Shown here in pieces: positions 5,449 through 56,177 of a DNA stretch of 64,000 bases (its first letter is position 1; every line of letters starts with the position of its first letter). The notes below the pieces were generated by a model, which ran no database searches, was not told where the DNA came from, and was given only the letters and a program-made list of their open reading frames with translations. Location: positions 1-64,000 of the forward strand of contig NZ_JABFHG010000019.1 in NCBI RefSeq assembly GCF_013112485.1. The letters are read 5' to 3'. This DNA comes from Roseicella sp. DB1501. GTDB taxonomy: Bacteria > Pseudomonadota > Alphaproteobacteria > Acetobacterales > Acetobacteraceae. The position numbers and the translations under genes were made by a program.

Positions 5449-7432
<1,984 letters not shown>

Positions 7433-7444
7433 TGGAACAGCCTG

Positions 7445-7474: not shown

Positions 7475-7613
7475 TGCGACGTGCCGGGCGACGTGCCGAG
7501 CCTGTTCATACCGGGTCGCATGAATCCCGACTCGCAGCCGGCTGAACGCCCGAACGGACGCCGCGGCTCATGCCGCGAAGCCAAACCACCGGAGGTGACG
7601 CCGGCAATCGACG

Positions 7614-7637
7614 GCATTGATGCGGCAACATCAATGC
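7614..7637 (-). terminator. Hairpin after the ispG-DUF4167 gene block
   Basis: GCATTGATG (7614-7622) and CATCAATGC (7629-7637) form a perfect 9-bp hairpin with a 6-nt loop, ten bases after the DUF4167 stop codon. No U-tract follows. It is the likely 3' end of the long minus-strand block. Confidence 0.4.
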
Positions 7638-7646
7638 ACGCCGATA

Positions 7647-8111
7647 TCATACCGGCTCGCGCGTCTCCGGCTGCGGCCCGTCATATTCGGGCTCGCCCTC
7701 GAGGGCATGGCCGTTGACCTGACCGTTCATCTCGCCCGGCGCCTCCTGCCCCTCGCCCGCCTCGCCGGACTCGGCATTCGACTGGAAGCGGCGCGGCTGG
7801 TGCTGGCCCTCGCGCTGCTGCTGCGCCTGGCTCATGGCGTTGAGGATGCGGAAATAGTGCTCGGCGTGCTGGAAATAGCCCTCGGCCATCACCCGGTCGC
7901 CGGAACTGGTCGCGTCGCGCCCAAGCTGCAGGTACTTCTCGAAGAGCTGCTGGGCCGTGCCGCGGAGCCGCATGTCCGGCCCGTTCGAGTCGAAGACATG
8001 GTTGCGATTCATAGGCTGGTGGCCGGACTGGCGAAACTGCCCGCCGCCACCGCCACCCCCTCCGCCACCACCATGCCGGTGGTTGCGGCCGCGCATACGT
8101 TTCATGTTCAT
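7647..8111 (-). CDS. DUF4167 domain-containing protein
   Basis: An alphaproteobacterial family of unknown function, usually encoded at the end of the prfA-prmC cluster as here. The 154-residue protein opens with a basic KRMRGRNHRHG segment, then a run of about eleven glycines, then the conserved core (FDSNGPDMRLRGTAQQLFEK, DRVMAEGYFQHAEHYFRI). The C-terminus is Gln/Glu-rich and disordered. The basic N-terminus suggests nucleic-acid binding, which is inference only. The start is placed at the Met before NMKRMRGR because homologues begin near this motif; a second in-frame ATG lies 6 bases later. Confidence 0.85.
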   Translation of the reverse strand: MNMKRMRGRNHRHGGGGGGGGGGGQFRQSGHQPMNRNHVFDSNGPDMRLRGTAQQLFEKYLQLGRDATSSGDRVMAEGYFQHAEHYFRILNAMSQAQQQREGQHQPRRFQSNAESGEAGEGQEAPGEMNGQVNGHALEGEPEYDGPQPETREPV

Positions 8112-8368
8112 CGGTATTGCGTCTGCCGTCTCGCAGCTGGGCCGCTCCGCCTGCCCCGGGGCAAGCCCCGGCACCTGCGGCACAAGCGGTCGATGTCTCC
8201 AAAAGGCGTTGCGGCCGGCGTGAATGCCCACAGCCCGTCCGCTGCTCGGCCCCAAACGCCAGGGCGGTGGGCTTGCCCATCCGCCCGCGAGGGCCTGCCG
8301 CAAGCTAGCCGCAGCGCGGCGGCCCGCCAATCGGTTTTTTTTCGCGGCGCCTGACGCGACGCCCCCGA

Positions 8369-24931: not shown

Positions 24932-25618
24932 TCAGCCCGGCAAGCCTGGCGCGGCCGGCGGCGCCGCGACGAGGGCCGGGCGCTGCTGCAGGGCGGCATG
25001 CGCCGCGCCGCCGAGCAGGCCGAGCCGGTGCACGTCCTCCCAGATCATCTTCACGCCGATCCAGACGATCAGCGCCACGCCGAGATAGGCGATCCAGCGA
25101 TAGCGCTCGAGCAGCTTCGAGATCAGCGTCGCCGCGACGCCCATCAGCAGGATGGAGATGACGAGGCCGAGCACCAGCATCGGCATGTTGCCATGCGCCG
25201 CGCCGGCGACGGCGAGGACGTTGTCGAGGCTCATCGAGACGTCGGCGATGACGATCTGGCGGAGCGCCGTCGCCATGGTCTTGGTCTCGTGATGGCTGTG
25301 GTCGCCGCTCTCCTCCTCCTTGTCCTCGGCGCGCAGCTCCCGGAAGAAGGTGAAGGCGATCCAGAGCAGCAGCAGCCCGCCGACCAGCAGCAGGCCGGGG
25401 ACGGCGAGGAGCTGCACCGCGGCGACGCTCAGGACGATGCGCAGCACCACGGCCAGCACCATGCCGAACATGATGGCGCGCGGCCGTTGCTCGGCCGGCA
25501 GGCCGGCGGCGGCGAGGGCGATGAGGACCGCGTTGTCGCCCGACAGGATGATATTCACGCCGAGGATCTCGGTGAGCGTGAACCAGTTCCAGCTCGCCAT
25601 CAGCGAGGTCATGTCCAT
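24932..25618 (-). CDS. TerC/YjbE family integral membrane transporter
   Basis: The 228-residue protein has about seven hydrophobic segments and the two family signatures NIILSGDNAVLIALAAAGLP and VIADVSMSLDNVLAVAGAA, whose acidic residues lie within membranes. Members of this family export metal ions, notably manganese. The cytoplasmic loop (EDKEEESGDHSHHE) is acidic and His-rich, consistent with metal sensing. I searched the upstream leader for a yybP-ykoY riboswitch and did not see its core. The start MDMTSLMASWNW precedes the first membrane segment. Confidence 0.88.
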   Translation of the reverse strand: MDMTSLMASWNWFTLTEILGVNIILSGDNAVLIALAAAGLPAEQRPRAIMFGMVLAVVLRIVLSVAAVQLLAVPGLLLVGGLLLLWIAFTFFRELRAEDKEEESGDHSHHETKTMATALRQIVIADVSMSLDNVLAVAGAAHGNMPMLVLGLVISILLMGVAATLISKLLERYRWIAYLGVALIVWIGVKMIWEDVHRLGLLGGAAHAALQQRPALVAAPPAAPGLPG

Positions 25619-25835
25619 GCGGCGACGTCTCCGGCCAATCGAAAAATGTTGCGCGATTTGGCCGAAATCCGGACTGCGGGCAAGCCGGCGCGGCGCTGGT
25701 CGGCAGGAATGGAGGCGCGGCGTGGCCACCGGGCCAGTCGGCACCCCAGGGGGGAGATTAACTAATAGTGGATTTTCCCTTCGCAATTTTTCGCGTTATG
25801 GCAAAGTTTCGCCGGCGCAGGATGAGGGCCTGACG

Positions 25836-26741
25836 GTGTGGCTGCGGAAGCTGTTCGACGGGCGGGGCGGGACCGCCGAGGTCATGCGGCCGGGAGGCGG
25901 CGGGCGACGCTTCCCCGAGGCCGCATCGCCGCGGCCGGGGCAGGGCTTGGCCGAGACCAGCTGCCCGGCCGATTTCCGCCGGCCCGGCGCCTCGCCCGCC
26001 ACCGCCATGGCCGAGGGGACGGCCACGGCCGCGGCGGAGCCGCCCCTCTCGACCGCCCTGCCCTTCCCGAGCACCGGCCCGCACGGCCATCGCGCCCGCA
26101 TGCGCGACAAGCTGCTCGAGCGCGGCCCCGAGGCGCTGGCGGATTACGAGCTGCTGGAGATGCTGCTCTTCCTCGCCATGCCGAAGGGCGACACCAAGCC
26201 GCTGGCCAAGGCGCTGATCAACCGCTTCGGCAGCTTCGGCAACGTCCTCGCCACGCCGACCAGGACGCTGCTCGAGACCCGCGGCCTCGGGCCGCACAGC
26301 GTCGCCGCCCTCAAGCTCGTCCAGGCCTCGGCGCTGCGCATGATGCGGGCCGAGGTGCTGGAGCAGCCGGTGCTGAACAACTGGGACCGGCTGATGGACT
26401 ACCTGACGGCCGCGATCGCGCGGGAGAAGGTGGAGCAGTTCCGCGTCCTCTACCTCGACACCCGCAACCGGCTGATCGCCGACGAGGCGCAGGCCCGCGG
26501 GACGGTCAACCACACGCCGGTCTATCCGCGCGAGGTGGTCAAGCGGGCGCTCGAGCTGCACGCCACCGCGCTGATCATGGTGCACAACCACCCCTCGGGC
26601 GACACCAAGCCCTCCGGCCCCGACATTGCCATGACGCGCGAGGTCAAGCAGGCCGCCGCCATCTTCTCGATCGCCCTGCACGACCACATCATCATCGGCC
26701 ATGGCGGCTGGTTCAGCTTCCGCGACGCCGGATTATTGTGA
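25836..26741 (+). CDS. radC: RadC family JAB/MPN-domain protein, copy 2
   Basis: A second RadC (301 residues) closely related to the copy at 21882. The metal site is HNHPSGDTKPSGPD, preceded by GTVNHTPVYPREVV, and the HhH-type region (RGLGPHSVAALKLVQ) is present. The N-terminal 80 residues are low-complexity. The start is a GTG at 25836 with GGATGAGGG upstream; an ATG at residue 16 is an alternative. The 217-bp upstream gap is AT-rich around 25755-25800 and probably carries promoters for this gene and the divergent TerC gene. Confidence 0.88.
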   Translation: MWLRKLFDGRGGTAEVMRPGGGGRRFPEAASPRPGQGLAETSCPADFRRPGASPATAMAEGTATAAAEPPLSTALPFPSTGPHGHRARMRDKLLERGPEALADYELLEMLLFLAMPKGDTKPLAKALINRFGSFGNVLATPTRTLLETRGLGPHSVAALKLVQASALRMMRAEVLEQPVLNNWDRLMDYLTAAIAREKVEQFRVLYLDTRNRLIADEAQARGTVNHTPVYPREVVKRALELHATALIMVHNHPSGDTKPSGPDIAMTREVKQAAAIFSIALHDHIIIGHGGWFSFRDAGLL

Positions 26742-26751
26742 TGCGGCGCGC

Positions 26752-26888
26752 AGGGCGGTTTCACCGTCCTTCCCCTCAAACGCCGGGCGCTGCCTCCGGC
26801 AGCTTGGCTTCGCCGCGTCGCGCCGACAGGCGCGCCTGACGACGCGACCGGCGGCGTCCGTTCGGGCGCCCGGCCCTGCGGGCCGCGG
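26752..26888 (+). repeat. Intergenic multi-hairpin repeat, copy A
   Basis: It shares with copies at 45751-45862 and 54594-54691 the boxes CGCCGGGCGC and CTTGGCTTCGC and a distal GGGCGC..CGGCCCTGCGGGCC. Hairpins AGGGCGGT/ACCGTCCT (26752-26770), GCTGCC/GGCAGC and CGCGTCG/CGACGCG lie between the boxes. Arms differ from the other copies while pairing is kept. This copy has about 20 extra bases in the third hairpin. It fills the gap before purB; the remainder (26889-27032) is GC-rich with no recognised feature. Confidence 0.7.
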
Positions 26889-27032
26889 CCTGGAGCCGCG
26901 TGAGCCGGGTACGGGCGCCGCCGGACCCATCGCCGCCCGCGCCCTTGCCAAGCGGGCGCCGGGCGGTTCAAACCCGGCGGCATCGCATCGCCGCCGCGCC
27001 CCGGCGCGGCCGCCCGAACGCCGAGGCCCCGG

Positions 27033-45415: not shown

Positions 45416-45742
45416 ATGCTCCGCAGCCTTGCCATCGGCCTCGCCGCCACCCTCGCCATCGCCCCGGCCCTCGCCCAGCGCGACGGCACCCCCGGCAATC
45501 CGCCGAGCACCGCCGTCCAGCGCGGGCTTGACCGCGCCACCGGCGCCGCGCCGACGCCGGCCGACGGCACCCCCGGCAACCCGCCCGGCACCGCCGCGGG
45601 CCGCGCCGTGGACAGGGCGACCGGCTCCAACATCAGCGGCGCCAATCCGAGCCGCAGCACCCCGGCCAGCCGCGAGCGGGCGCGCGAGGGCAAGCATACC
45701 GGCCAGCACAAGGATATGAACGGATCGACGACCACCCGCTGA
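45416..45742 (+). CDS. Secreted protein with an internal 33-residue duplication
   Basis: The 108-residue product has a signal peptide (MLRSLAIGLAATLAIAPALA) and two similar blocks: DGTPGNPPSTAVQRGLDRATG and DGTPGNPPGTAAGRAVDRATG. The C-terminus is basic and His-containing. AGGAGAG lies upstream of ATG 45416. No family is recognised. Gap 45231-45415 holds no other feature that I see. Confidence 0.65.
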   Translation: MLRSLAIGLAATLAIAPALAQRDGTPGNPPSTAVQRGLDRATGAAPTPADGTPGNPPGTAAGRAVDRATGSNISGANPSRSTPASRERAREGKHTGQHKDMNGSTTTR

Positions 45743-45750
45743 TACTACGT

Positions 45751-45862
45751 GCGCGAAGGTGAAACCTTCGCGCCCCTCAAACGCCGGGCGCAAACCTCCG
45801 GTTTGCTTGGCTTCGCTGCATAAGCAGCGGCGCTCCTTCGGGCGCTCGGCCCTGCGGGCCGT
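45751..45862 (+). repeat. Intergenic multi-hairpin repeat, copy B
   Basis: Structure in order: hairpin GCGCGAAGGT/ACCTTCGCGC (45751-45773), CCCCTCAAACGCCGGGCGC box, hairpin CAAACC-tcc-GGTTTG, CTTGGCTTCG box, hairpin CGCTGC-ataa-GCAGCG, then GGCGCTCCTTCGGGCGC and GGCCCTGCGGGCC. It is the cleanest copy. It lies between convergent genes, so a terminator role is possible. Confidence 0.75.
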
Positions 45863-45943
45863 AGTCGTTACTGCGCGCGCCAGGTATGACCGAGCGGCGG
45901 GGAGGTCCAGGCGGACGCGCCCGGCCGCCTCCCCGCCTGCCGC

Positions 45944-54415: not shown

Positions 54416-54593
54416 GCCGGAGACGTCTCCCGATCCGAGGGGTGTGCCGGTGGGCCGGCAGTGCTGGATCGGTCATGTACGCCGCCGGACCGCGCGTTTC
54501 ACCGCAGAACCACGCGCGTCAGGCGTAACCCCGACATCGATTGGGAGCATGGCTGTGAACCACGCCCCCATATCGGATTATCGCTATGCCAGC

Positions 54594-54691
54594 GGACCGG
54601 TCTCCTGACCGGTCCGAGGCCCCGAGCGGGACCCGCGACTTACGTCGCGTAGCCAAGCGAACCGAAGGTTCGCGCCCGGCGCCTGGGGGCC
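54594..54691 (-). repeat. Intergenic multi-hairpin repeat, copy C
   Basis: On the minus strand: CGCCGGGCGC box, hairpin CGAACC-ttc-GGTTCG, CTTGGCTACG box, hairpin CGCGAC-gtaa-GTCGCG, GGTCCCGCTCGGGGCC and a last hairpin GGACCGGT/ACCGGTCC. Arms differ from copies A and B but pairing is kept. It lies between gabD and the thiosulfate transporter gene. A 19-codon ORF (54549-54608, plus strand) ends inside it. Confidence 0.7.
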
Positions 54692-54698
54692 ATGAACG

Positions 54699-56177
54699 TC
54701 AAGTGCCGATGCCGCCGAGGGCGAGGTACTTCACCTCGAGATACTCGTCGATGCCGTAATGGCTGCCCTCGCGGCCGAGGCCGCTCTCCTTCACGCCGCC
54801 GAAGGGCGCCACCTCGGTGCTGATCAGCCCCTCATTGATGCCGATGATGCCGCTCTCCAGCGCCTCGGCCACCCGGAAGATGCGGCCGACATCGCGGGCG
54901 TAGAAATAGGCGGCGAGGCCGAAGGGCGTGTCGTTGGCCAGCGCGATCGCCTCCTCCTCCGTCTTGAAGCGGAAGAGTGGCGCGACCGGGCCGAAGGTCT
55001 CCTCGCGGAACATCAGCGCGTTGTCCGGGACGTTGGCGAGCACCGTCGGCTCGTAGAAATTGCCGCCGCGCGGGTGCCGCTTGCCACCCGTGACGACGCT
55101 CGCCCCCTTGGCGAGGGCGTCGGAGACGTGCTCCTCCACCTTCTTCACCGCATCGGCGTTGATCAGCGGCCCCTGGGTCACGCCCGGCTCCATGCCGTCG
55201 CCGACCTTCAGCGCCTCGACCGCCGCCTTCAGCTTGGCGGCGAAGGCGTCGTAGACCCCGTCCTGGACCAGGATGCGGTTGGCGCAGACGCAGGTCTGGC
55301 CGGTGTTGCGGTACTTCGAGGCCATCGCCCCCTGCACCGCGGCGTCCAGATCGGCATCGTCGAAGACGATGAAGGGAGCGTTGCCGCCGAGCTCCATCGA
55401 GGTCTTCTTGATGGTGGGCGCGCATTGCGCCAGCAGCACGCGGCCGACATCCGTGCTGCCCGTGAAGGTCAGCTTGCGGACCAGCGGGTTGCCGGTCAGC
55501 TCCTTGCCGGTCTCGCCGCTGGGGCCGGTGATGACGTTGCAGACGCCGGGCGGCATGCCGGCCCGCTCGGCCAGCACGGCGATGGCGAGCGCCGAGAAGG
55601 GAGTCTGCGACGCCGGGCGGATGACGCCGGTGCAGCCCGCGGCCCAGCCCGGCCCGGTCTTCCGGGTAATCATCGCGGCCGGGAAGTTCCACGGCGTGAT
55701 CGCGGCGAAGACGCCGATCGGCTCCTTCTGGACGATGATGCGCCGGCCCTTGGCATTCTGCGGGATGGTGTCGCCATAGACCCGCTTCCCCTCCTCGGCG
55801 AACCACTCGATGAAGGAGGCGGCATAGGCGATCTCGCCCTTGCTCTCGGCCAGCGGCTTGCCCTGCTCGGCGGTCATGATCGCCGCCAGGTCGTCGGTAT
55901 TGGCGAGCATGAGGTCGAAGAGCTTGCGCAGGATCGCGGCGCGGTCCTTGGCCAGCATGGCCCGCCAGCCGCCCTGCGCCTTGTGCGCCGCCTCGATGGC
56001 GCGGCGGGTCTCGGCGGCGCCCATGGCGGGGACGCGGCCGATCAGCTCGCCGGTCGAGGGATTGCGGACCTCGAGGGTCTTGCCGCTATCGGCCTGAACC
56101 CATTCCCCGTTGATGCAATTGGCCTGACGGAAGAGCTCGGGGTCCTTCAGCGGCAGGCGTGCGACGGCGTCCAGCAT
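54699..56177 (-). CDS. gabD: NAD(P)-dependent succinate-semialdehyde dehydrogenase
   Basis: An aldehyde dehydrogenase of 492 residues oxidising succinate semialdehyde to succinate. Core motifs are NFPAAMITRKTGPGWAAG, catalytic Glu in SMELGGNAPF and catalytic Cys in NTGQTCVCANR. The usual Lys of the xKPA(S/E)QTP coenzyme site is Arg here (VIRPASQTP), and the preceding segment reads GPGWAAGCTG rather than GPALAAGCT. It is likely still active. The gene stands between repeat copy C and the secretion operon. Confidence 0.93.
   Translation of the reverse strand: MLDAVARLPLKDPELFRQANCINGEWVQADSGKTLEVRNPSTGELIGRVPAMGAAETRRAIEAAHKAQGGWRAMLAKDRAAILRKLFDLMLANTDDLAAIMTAEQGKPLAESKGEIAYAASFIEWFAEEGKRVYGDTIPQNAKGRRIIVQKEPIGVFAAITPWNFPAAMITRKTGPGWAAGCTGVIRPASQTPFSALAIAVLAERAGMPPGVCNVITGPSGETGKELTGNPLVRKLTFTGSTDVGRVLLAQCAPTIKKTSMELGGNAPFIVFDDADLDAAVQGAMASKYRNTGQTCVCANRILVQDGVYDAFAAKLKAAVEALKVGDGMEPGVTQGPLINADAVKKVEEHVSDALAKGASVVTGGKRHPRGGNFYEPTVLANVPDNALMFREETFGPVAPLFRFKTEEEAIALANDTPFGLAAYFYARDVGRIFRVAEALESGIIGINEGLISTEVAPFGGVKESGLGREGSHYGIDEYLEVKYLALGGIGT

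Follow-up and report, generated by a model that had tools for sequence, protein, structure and literature searches.

The three hairpin repeats first noticed in this 64,000-nucleotide stretch of Roseicella sp. DB1501 DNA (hereafter the window) are the central part of a larger, dispersed element, and it is very probable that this element represents a MITE family, that is, non-autonomous transposons of 110-170 bp that insert at TNA, spare stop codons and have their hairpin arms kept as DNA palindromes. The assignment to MITE-type transposons is based on the TNA duplications found in G062, a genome of the same family in which the element was recently amplified, and on the ORF that is restored by removing the element and one copy of the duplication. 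The original prediction, which saw only boxes and hairpins, overlooked this transposon frame of inverted ends and TNA target duplications. We could not find such a MITE family of Alphaproteobacteria described earlier in the open-licence literature, since no description of the repeat was found in open-licence PubMed Central; subscription journals or ISfinder could hold one.

The repeats form a multi-copy intergenic family. The combined pattern GCCGGGCGC-N(6-20)-TTGGCTNCG has 35 occurrences in the Roseicella genome of 5.99 Mb and none when the same pattern is read backwards, and a covariance model built from 29 copies of this genome gave at least 135 matches at E <= 0.01 among the best 150 candidates scored, far beyond the three copies from which the original prediction proposed such a search. 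Within the window the model detected four copies, with cores at 26770-26873 and 45771-45849 on the plus strand and at 54614-54692 and 7542-7617 on the minus strand, and the next-best match had E = 0.4; the three predicted copies are thus all real, and the one at 7542-7617 had been missed. The two constant boxes (CGCCGGGCGC and CTTGGCTnCG) read as claimed at the three loci, and the same is true of the arms of hairpin 1 (GCTGCC/GGCAGC, CAAACC/GGTTTG and CGAACC/GGTTCG, around TCC or TTC) and of the second hairpin (CGCGTCG/CGACGCG, CGCTGC/GCAGCG and CGCGAC/GTCGCG). The conserved ATAA or GTAA loop of the second hairpin holds for copies B and C and not for copy A, because the second hairpin of copy A contains 33 nt in place of 6 model positions.

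Copy A (26742-26911, plus strand; 170 bp, TGCGG...GGGTA, ends set by eye; core E 6.7e-10) directly follows a TGA (26739-26741, plus strand) that is at once the stop codon of a RadC-like ORF (25320-26741, RadC by Pfam) and the 5' target trinucleotide, and with CGG as its 3' trinucleotide (26912-26914) it shows no intact duplication (TGA/CGG). Copy B (45743-45886, plus strand; 144 bp, TACTACG...CCAGGTA; core E 5.1e-19) is composed of a 5' hairpin, a three-hairpin core and a 3' hairpin, and lies between two TGA on the plus strand, one at 45740-45742, which is also the stop of a small ORF that fails the GC3 gene test, and its duplicate at 45887-45889. Copy C (54587-54698, minus strand; 112 bp, ends missed by the automatic end rule and set by eye; core E 6.9e-18) has no 5' hairpin and carries the 3' hairpin GGACCGGTC/GACCGGTCC; its 5' TNA is the TGA stop (54699-54701, minus strand) of an aldehyde dehydrogenase ORF (54699-56177, PF00171), and its 3' trinucleotide, at 54584-54586, reads TAG on the minus strand, giving an inexact duplication (TGA/TAG). 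Copy D, the additional copy (L241; 7509-7646, minus strand; 138 bp, TATCGGC...ACCCGGTA; core E 1.9e-10), is bordered on the minus strand by the TGA stop (7647-7649) of a DUF4167 ORF (7647-8330, PF13763) and by the duplicate TGA at 7506-7508. Exact TGA duplications are therefore present in the window for copies B and D and absent for copies A and C, and each of the four begins at the stop of the ORF upstream of it, the ends of copies A and C being those placed by eye. Copy D ends 66 bp upstream of a TPP riboswitch (RF00059, 75.1 bits; 7334-7442, minus strand) that is located ahead of thiC (5449-7266, minus strand).

The complete element is short (about 110-170 bp), non-coding and flanked by TNA on each side, and the hairpin boxes form its core. 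It consists, in this order, of TACCA, an optional 5' hairpin, CCCTCA, a box, hairpin 1, CTTGGCTTCGC, hairpins 2 and 3, CTCGG, hairpin 4 and TGGTA, with an interior of three to five GC-rich palindromes in a row linked by the constant boxes CCCTCA-n-n-CGCCGGGCG, CTTGGCTTCGC and CTCGG. Its imperfect inverted ends are TACCAAC...GTTGGTA in G062 and TACCA...TGGTA in other lineages, and are short and worn in the Roseicella genome. At three loci of this genome (L012, L014 and L235) a different repeat, of the GATCGCGTGA..TCACGC type, lies within or next to element copies, seemingly by nested insertion. Palindromes of about 37 bp that consist of TIRs only (TNATACCANCGG..CCGNTGGTATNA) were observed in Neoroseomonas eburnea (G176) at C3:164471-164507, C17:124393-124429 and C19:44842-44878; judged from the TIR positions only, these are possible minimal elements, and locus L163 of G062 resembles them.

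Identical TNA trinucleotides were found on both sides of 25 of the 27 G062 copies matched by a pattern that itself requires TNA at both ends. Three G062 copies outside this pattern, read by eye, have CGA/TGA (L128), TCA/TGA (L163, which is TIR-only) and TCA/TCA (L180, whose start is worn). Copies of the Roseicella genome are older than those of G062: among 87 copies (94 minus seven below 25 bits, copy A being one of those dropped; this set was used for end scoring, gene context and T-tract counts), 31 match the consensus in at least 5/7 at both ends and 56 are too worn, and the TNA is equal in 21 of these 31, a value as high being obtained in 103 of 20000 permutations. In two other alphaproteobacterial families (G194 and G045) all four copies whose two ends are visible (L299, L301, L303 and L304) are TNA-duplicated, and in a further family (G378) the single locus L315 has unequal trinucleotides, TTA and ATA. 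When the flanks of L114 of G062 were joined without the element and one TGA, an open ORF for a nucleotidyltransferase was obtained, with a PF06042 (NTP_transf_6) match spanning the junction (E 9.7e-20). This is a single such case, given that a spanning ORF was recovered at only two of the 27 G062 sites; the second join, at L153, also leaves an open frame, with trinucleotides that differ and no Pfam match.

The target trinucleotide coincides with the ends of genes. Among the TNA trinucleotides, TAA and TGA are stops as they stand, and TTA and TCA are stops on the opposite strand. With a simple open-frame and GC3 rule as gene test, a TNA falls exactly at the stop of a flanking gene in 24 of the 31 both-ended Roseicella copies, compared with 183 of 3626 TNA sites in a control of 94 loci, six of which duplicate another one; the TNA sites of the elements themselves are counted in this control. 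For G062 the corresponding figures are 11 of 27 copies and 26 of 457 TNA sites, the latter from loci L110-L129 and again including the elements' own sites. As to gene context, the neighbouring genes of the 87 Roseicella copies are convergent in 35 cases, co-directional in 22 and 17 and divergent in 4, with 9 unassigned. It is reasonable to suppose that a transposase supplied in trans, probably from an insertion sequence with the same ends, would insert the element at TNA and duplicate it; because these trinucleotides are stops on one strand or the other, an insertion at a gene stop would regenerate the stop and spare the gene. Purifying selection on insertion sites would thus leave copies where genes end, most of all between convergent genes. 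In five IMG/VR contigs (L317, L319, L324, L326 and L332) the core lies in a shared sequence context. An open frame runs into it there and terminates at the TAA within the loop of hairpin 2 (..VHFLSAPSNAGREPSGSLGFAA*), so that a protein may have gained its C-terminus from the element.

Like the bacterial MITEs ERIC, Correia/NEMIS, RUP and QMITE2, as presented in the available passages of PMC10969869, the element is short, non-coding, dispersed, mostly intergenic and bounded by inverted ends, and it shares with QMITE2, which the same passages place mainly in 3' untranslated regions, the location at 3' gene ends. Compared with the MITEs treated there, three features are its own: the TNA duplication that coincides with stop codons, the interior row of three to five palindromes with variable arms, and the occurrence in several alphaproteobacterial families with a core that is also found without the ends (PMC10969869). 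CIR is also named in those passages (PMC10969869). The IS1031 group of the IS5 family shares with the present element a TNA target and a 3-bp duplication, the latter given as exclusive in the excerpted text of PMC12016507, and the insertion reported in that text likewise went into TGA. No transposase was tied to the element, and as a candidate source of one the IS1031 group is only a lead, because the end quoted in PMC12016507 starts with GAACCTG and the present element with TACCA. The RIME repeats of rhizobia and the CIR repeats of Caulobacter are alphaproteobacterial intergenic mosaic or MITE-like repeats, and they resemble the element in type of repeat.

A longer relative of the MITE probably exists in G062. 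Seven contig ends of this genome carry TNA and the 37-bp end of the MITE and then continue into different sequence, the assembly breaking there, as expected of a longer multi-copy partner that we take to be the probable autonomous element; the sequence beyond the 37-bp end, read from the inside outwards, could code for the C-terminal residues of a protein. The body of this partner was not found in the G062 assembly, and its end had no match in G146, the only other genome of the G062 genus examined, which is 80% complete. TIR searches in G062, G115, G176 and G000 returned MITEs, short TIR-only palindromes and the seven contig ends, and no TIR pairs at IS distance; exact pairs of the 12-mer TNATACCANCGG at 0.4-5 kb were absent from G115, G176 and G000. 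Among 85 PF01609 matches of seven genomes, none of the 30 loci inspected has a transposase between TNATACC...GGTATNA. A pattern on contig C458 of G062 (L180) was ruled out as a second partner, being a slip duplication of the box and hairpin 1 within one copy.

The distribution of the element is not that of a genome-specific repeat, as had been suggested. Model matches at E <= 1e-4 were found in 25 of 150 genomes of the family and in 28 of 385 genomes of the class, the latter in many families; both counts include the Roseicella genome, and only a few candidates were scored per genome. In named genomes an exact 34-mer from the core was found in 34 stretches, foremost in Neoroseomonas eburnea and also in N. 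nitratireducens, Roseicella frigidaeris, Siccirubricoccus, Plastoroseomonas, Paracraurococcus and Roseomonas, which we take to be all Acetobacteraceae. The exact box pattern is present in 15 of 59 genomes, several of the single matches being chance occurrences without the rest of the core, and of five blastn searches against PLSDB four gave no match and the fifth a single, weak one, in Methylobacterium bullatum, covering 31% of the query. The core is found in other alphaproteobacterial families both with and without the TNA/TACCA frame, and in 16 IMG/VR contigs, two of which (L318 and L321) have the TNATACC form. Without inverted ends it occurs alone and in tandem arrays, the latter in G015, G099, G314 and G455; tandem-array loci in other genera are L134, with a 95-bp period, L131, L314 and L292. 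A MITE defined by its ends does not explain these cores without inverted ends.

The compensatory changes claimed for the hairpin arms are borne out by covariation well above that of shuffled and slid controls. In the alignment of 94 Roseicella copies, whose rows were fitted to the covariance model, 95.1% of the pair cells are paired and covariation is 0.333, compared with 0.108 after shuffling and at most 0.069 after sliding; in 29 gap-free copies, picked by box pattern and length from the 44 rows of a first alignment, the values are 95.5%, 0.229, 0.077 and at most 0.046. Conservation of the boxes among these 29 copies is given by construction, because the rows were picked by the box pattern. 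The two observations that would have spoken against the family, a repeat limited to three copies and a lack of covariation, were thus both contrary to what was found. Most of the variation falls in the middle of each stem, the outer and the closing pairs being nearly constant. Folding energies relative to shuffles (z -1.8 for copy A, -3.8 for copy B and -4.4 for copy C) are less telling than covariation.

A form of hairpin 1 in which the two arms have changed places around the same loop (GGTTTGC-TCC-GCAAACC instead of GCAAACC-TCC-GGTTTGC) is found at L088, L099, L106, L224 and L225, with small changes in some of them, including L088 and L099; a simple inversion would not produce an arm swap with a kept TCC loop. 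According to the available part of PMC8794818, a stem can be renewed in a single step when replication switches templates. The 1110 pair cells with letters in the G062 burst (10 more are gaps) contain no compensated double change, so that the arm diversity lies between lineages, and recent template switching as the mechanism of arm renewal is not demonstrable in this burst. Among 22 copies of N. eburnea, four share one A-T to G-C double change at the inverted end and two have three further double-change cells elsewhere in the element, the remaining doubles lying in the flank outside it. Divergence figures were set aside, because the unpaired class is inflated by bases of the TSD and by 3' parts that are misaligned. 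Tentatively, the hairpin string could be an ancient module of alphaproteobacterial mobile DNA, with palindromes selected or mutationally renewed at the DNA level and with several travelling forms, namely the TNA/TACCA transposons, the tandem arrays and the phage-like contigs. Under this possible history the arms would change, and even swap sides with the loop kept, yet remain complementary, and they could be renewed by template switching at replication or because the module needs folded single-stranded DNA for its own spread. For the MITE family itself, the differing arms that still pair would go back to different source lineages, their pairing being maintained as that of DNA palindromes and not through selection on one RNA strand.

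That the repeat is instead a structured RNA or a 3'-UTR element, such as a stability element, an RNase target or an sRNA, with selection for the fold of one strand, appears unlikely. This idea draws on the strong covariation, on hairpin loops that are kept in one orientation, and on the position of many copies just 3' of a gene, since the left-hand plus-strand gene ends at most 60 nt from the core in 53 of 62 cases and the 35 convergent sites stand against 4 divergent ones. Selection on an RNA strand should lead to more tolerance of G.T than of A.C in that strand. With the five box-fixed outer pairs left out, the inner 19 pairs contain 48 G.T and 55 A.C mismatches in the Roseicella copies (1731 cells), and 5 and 10, respectively, in other genomes (1057 cells; 58 distinct of 64 rows), even though the model by which copies were selected tolerates G.U. 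RNA selection is not supported, because G.T is not commoner than A.C in the inner stem pairs, where pairing looks to be kept as in a DNA palindrome; the proposal that the repeat could be an RNA finds no support in this test. Two outer pairs in the stem of hairpin 1 are constant G-T pairs (89 and 64 of 93 copies have G-T there); these could be counted in favor of an RNA and are equally compatible with a plus-strand RNA and with a constant box. In addition, the transposon ends and target duplications account for both spread and position, and Rfam has no match for the repeat, in agreement with the original prediction, which knew of no named family with this pattern: at gathering scores only the TPP riboswitch was found in the window, and at E <= 10 all hits on the three loci were far below the gathering scores.

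Intrinsic terminators repeated in the genome, another of the possibilities raised originally, would also give paired hairpins, often between convergent genes, and are very unlikely given that canonical terminators were not seen and T-tracts after the hairpins are rare: TTTT follows hairpin 3 within 78 nt on the plus strand in only 5 of the 87 copies and hairpin 1 within 74 nt on the minus strand in one of the 87, and the T-runs that are seen, in other genera, are located ahead of the core. A side effect on termination, either bidirectional or Rho-assisted, may nonetheless accompany the element.

Least probable of all are REP/BIME elements moved by a Y1 (RAYT) transposase, which are likewise extragenic, palindromic, high-copy, mosaic and near gene 3' ends, since no Y1_Tnp match (PF01797, E <= 0.001) was found in the Roseicella genome (98.4% complete, 47 contigs), in a search whose control was positive in 5 of 14 known genomes, and no GTAG tag was seen in the alignments. 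To our knowledge, TNA duplications and inverted ends are not features of REP elements. The CGTC-tagged palindromes, abundant in Alphaproteobacteria, are, like REP/BIME, palindromic and located downstream of genes according to the available text of PMC3733652, whereas the present element is larger, has inverted ends and a target duplication, and has neither the tag nor a Y1 transposase match. The description given there of the CGTC family (stems of 8-9 bp, loops of 4-5, A-T first pairs and a CCA tail) does not fit, as far as the text without the figure consensus goes, and the same text reports no CGTC repeats in Acetobacteraceae (PMC3733652).

A target duplication that is itself a stop codon neatly explains why copies of the MITE lie exactly at gene ends. 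The family also suggests that strand-specific RNA selection is not required for textbook covariation to arise in a bacterial repeat, and a count of G.U against A.C mismatches offers a simple check for other candidate RNAs. The element constitutes a mobile family of several alphaproteobacterial families, and its recent bursts provide the set in which to find the transposase.
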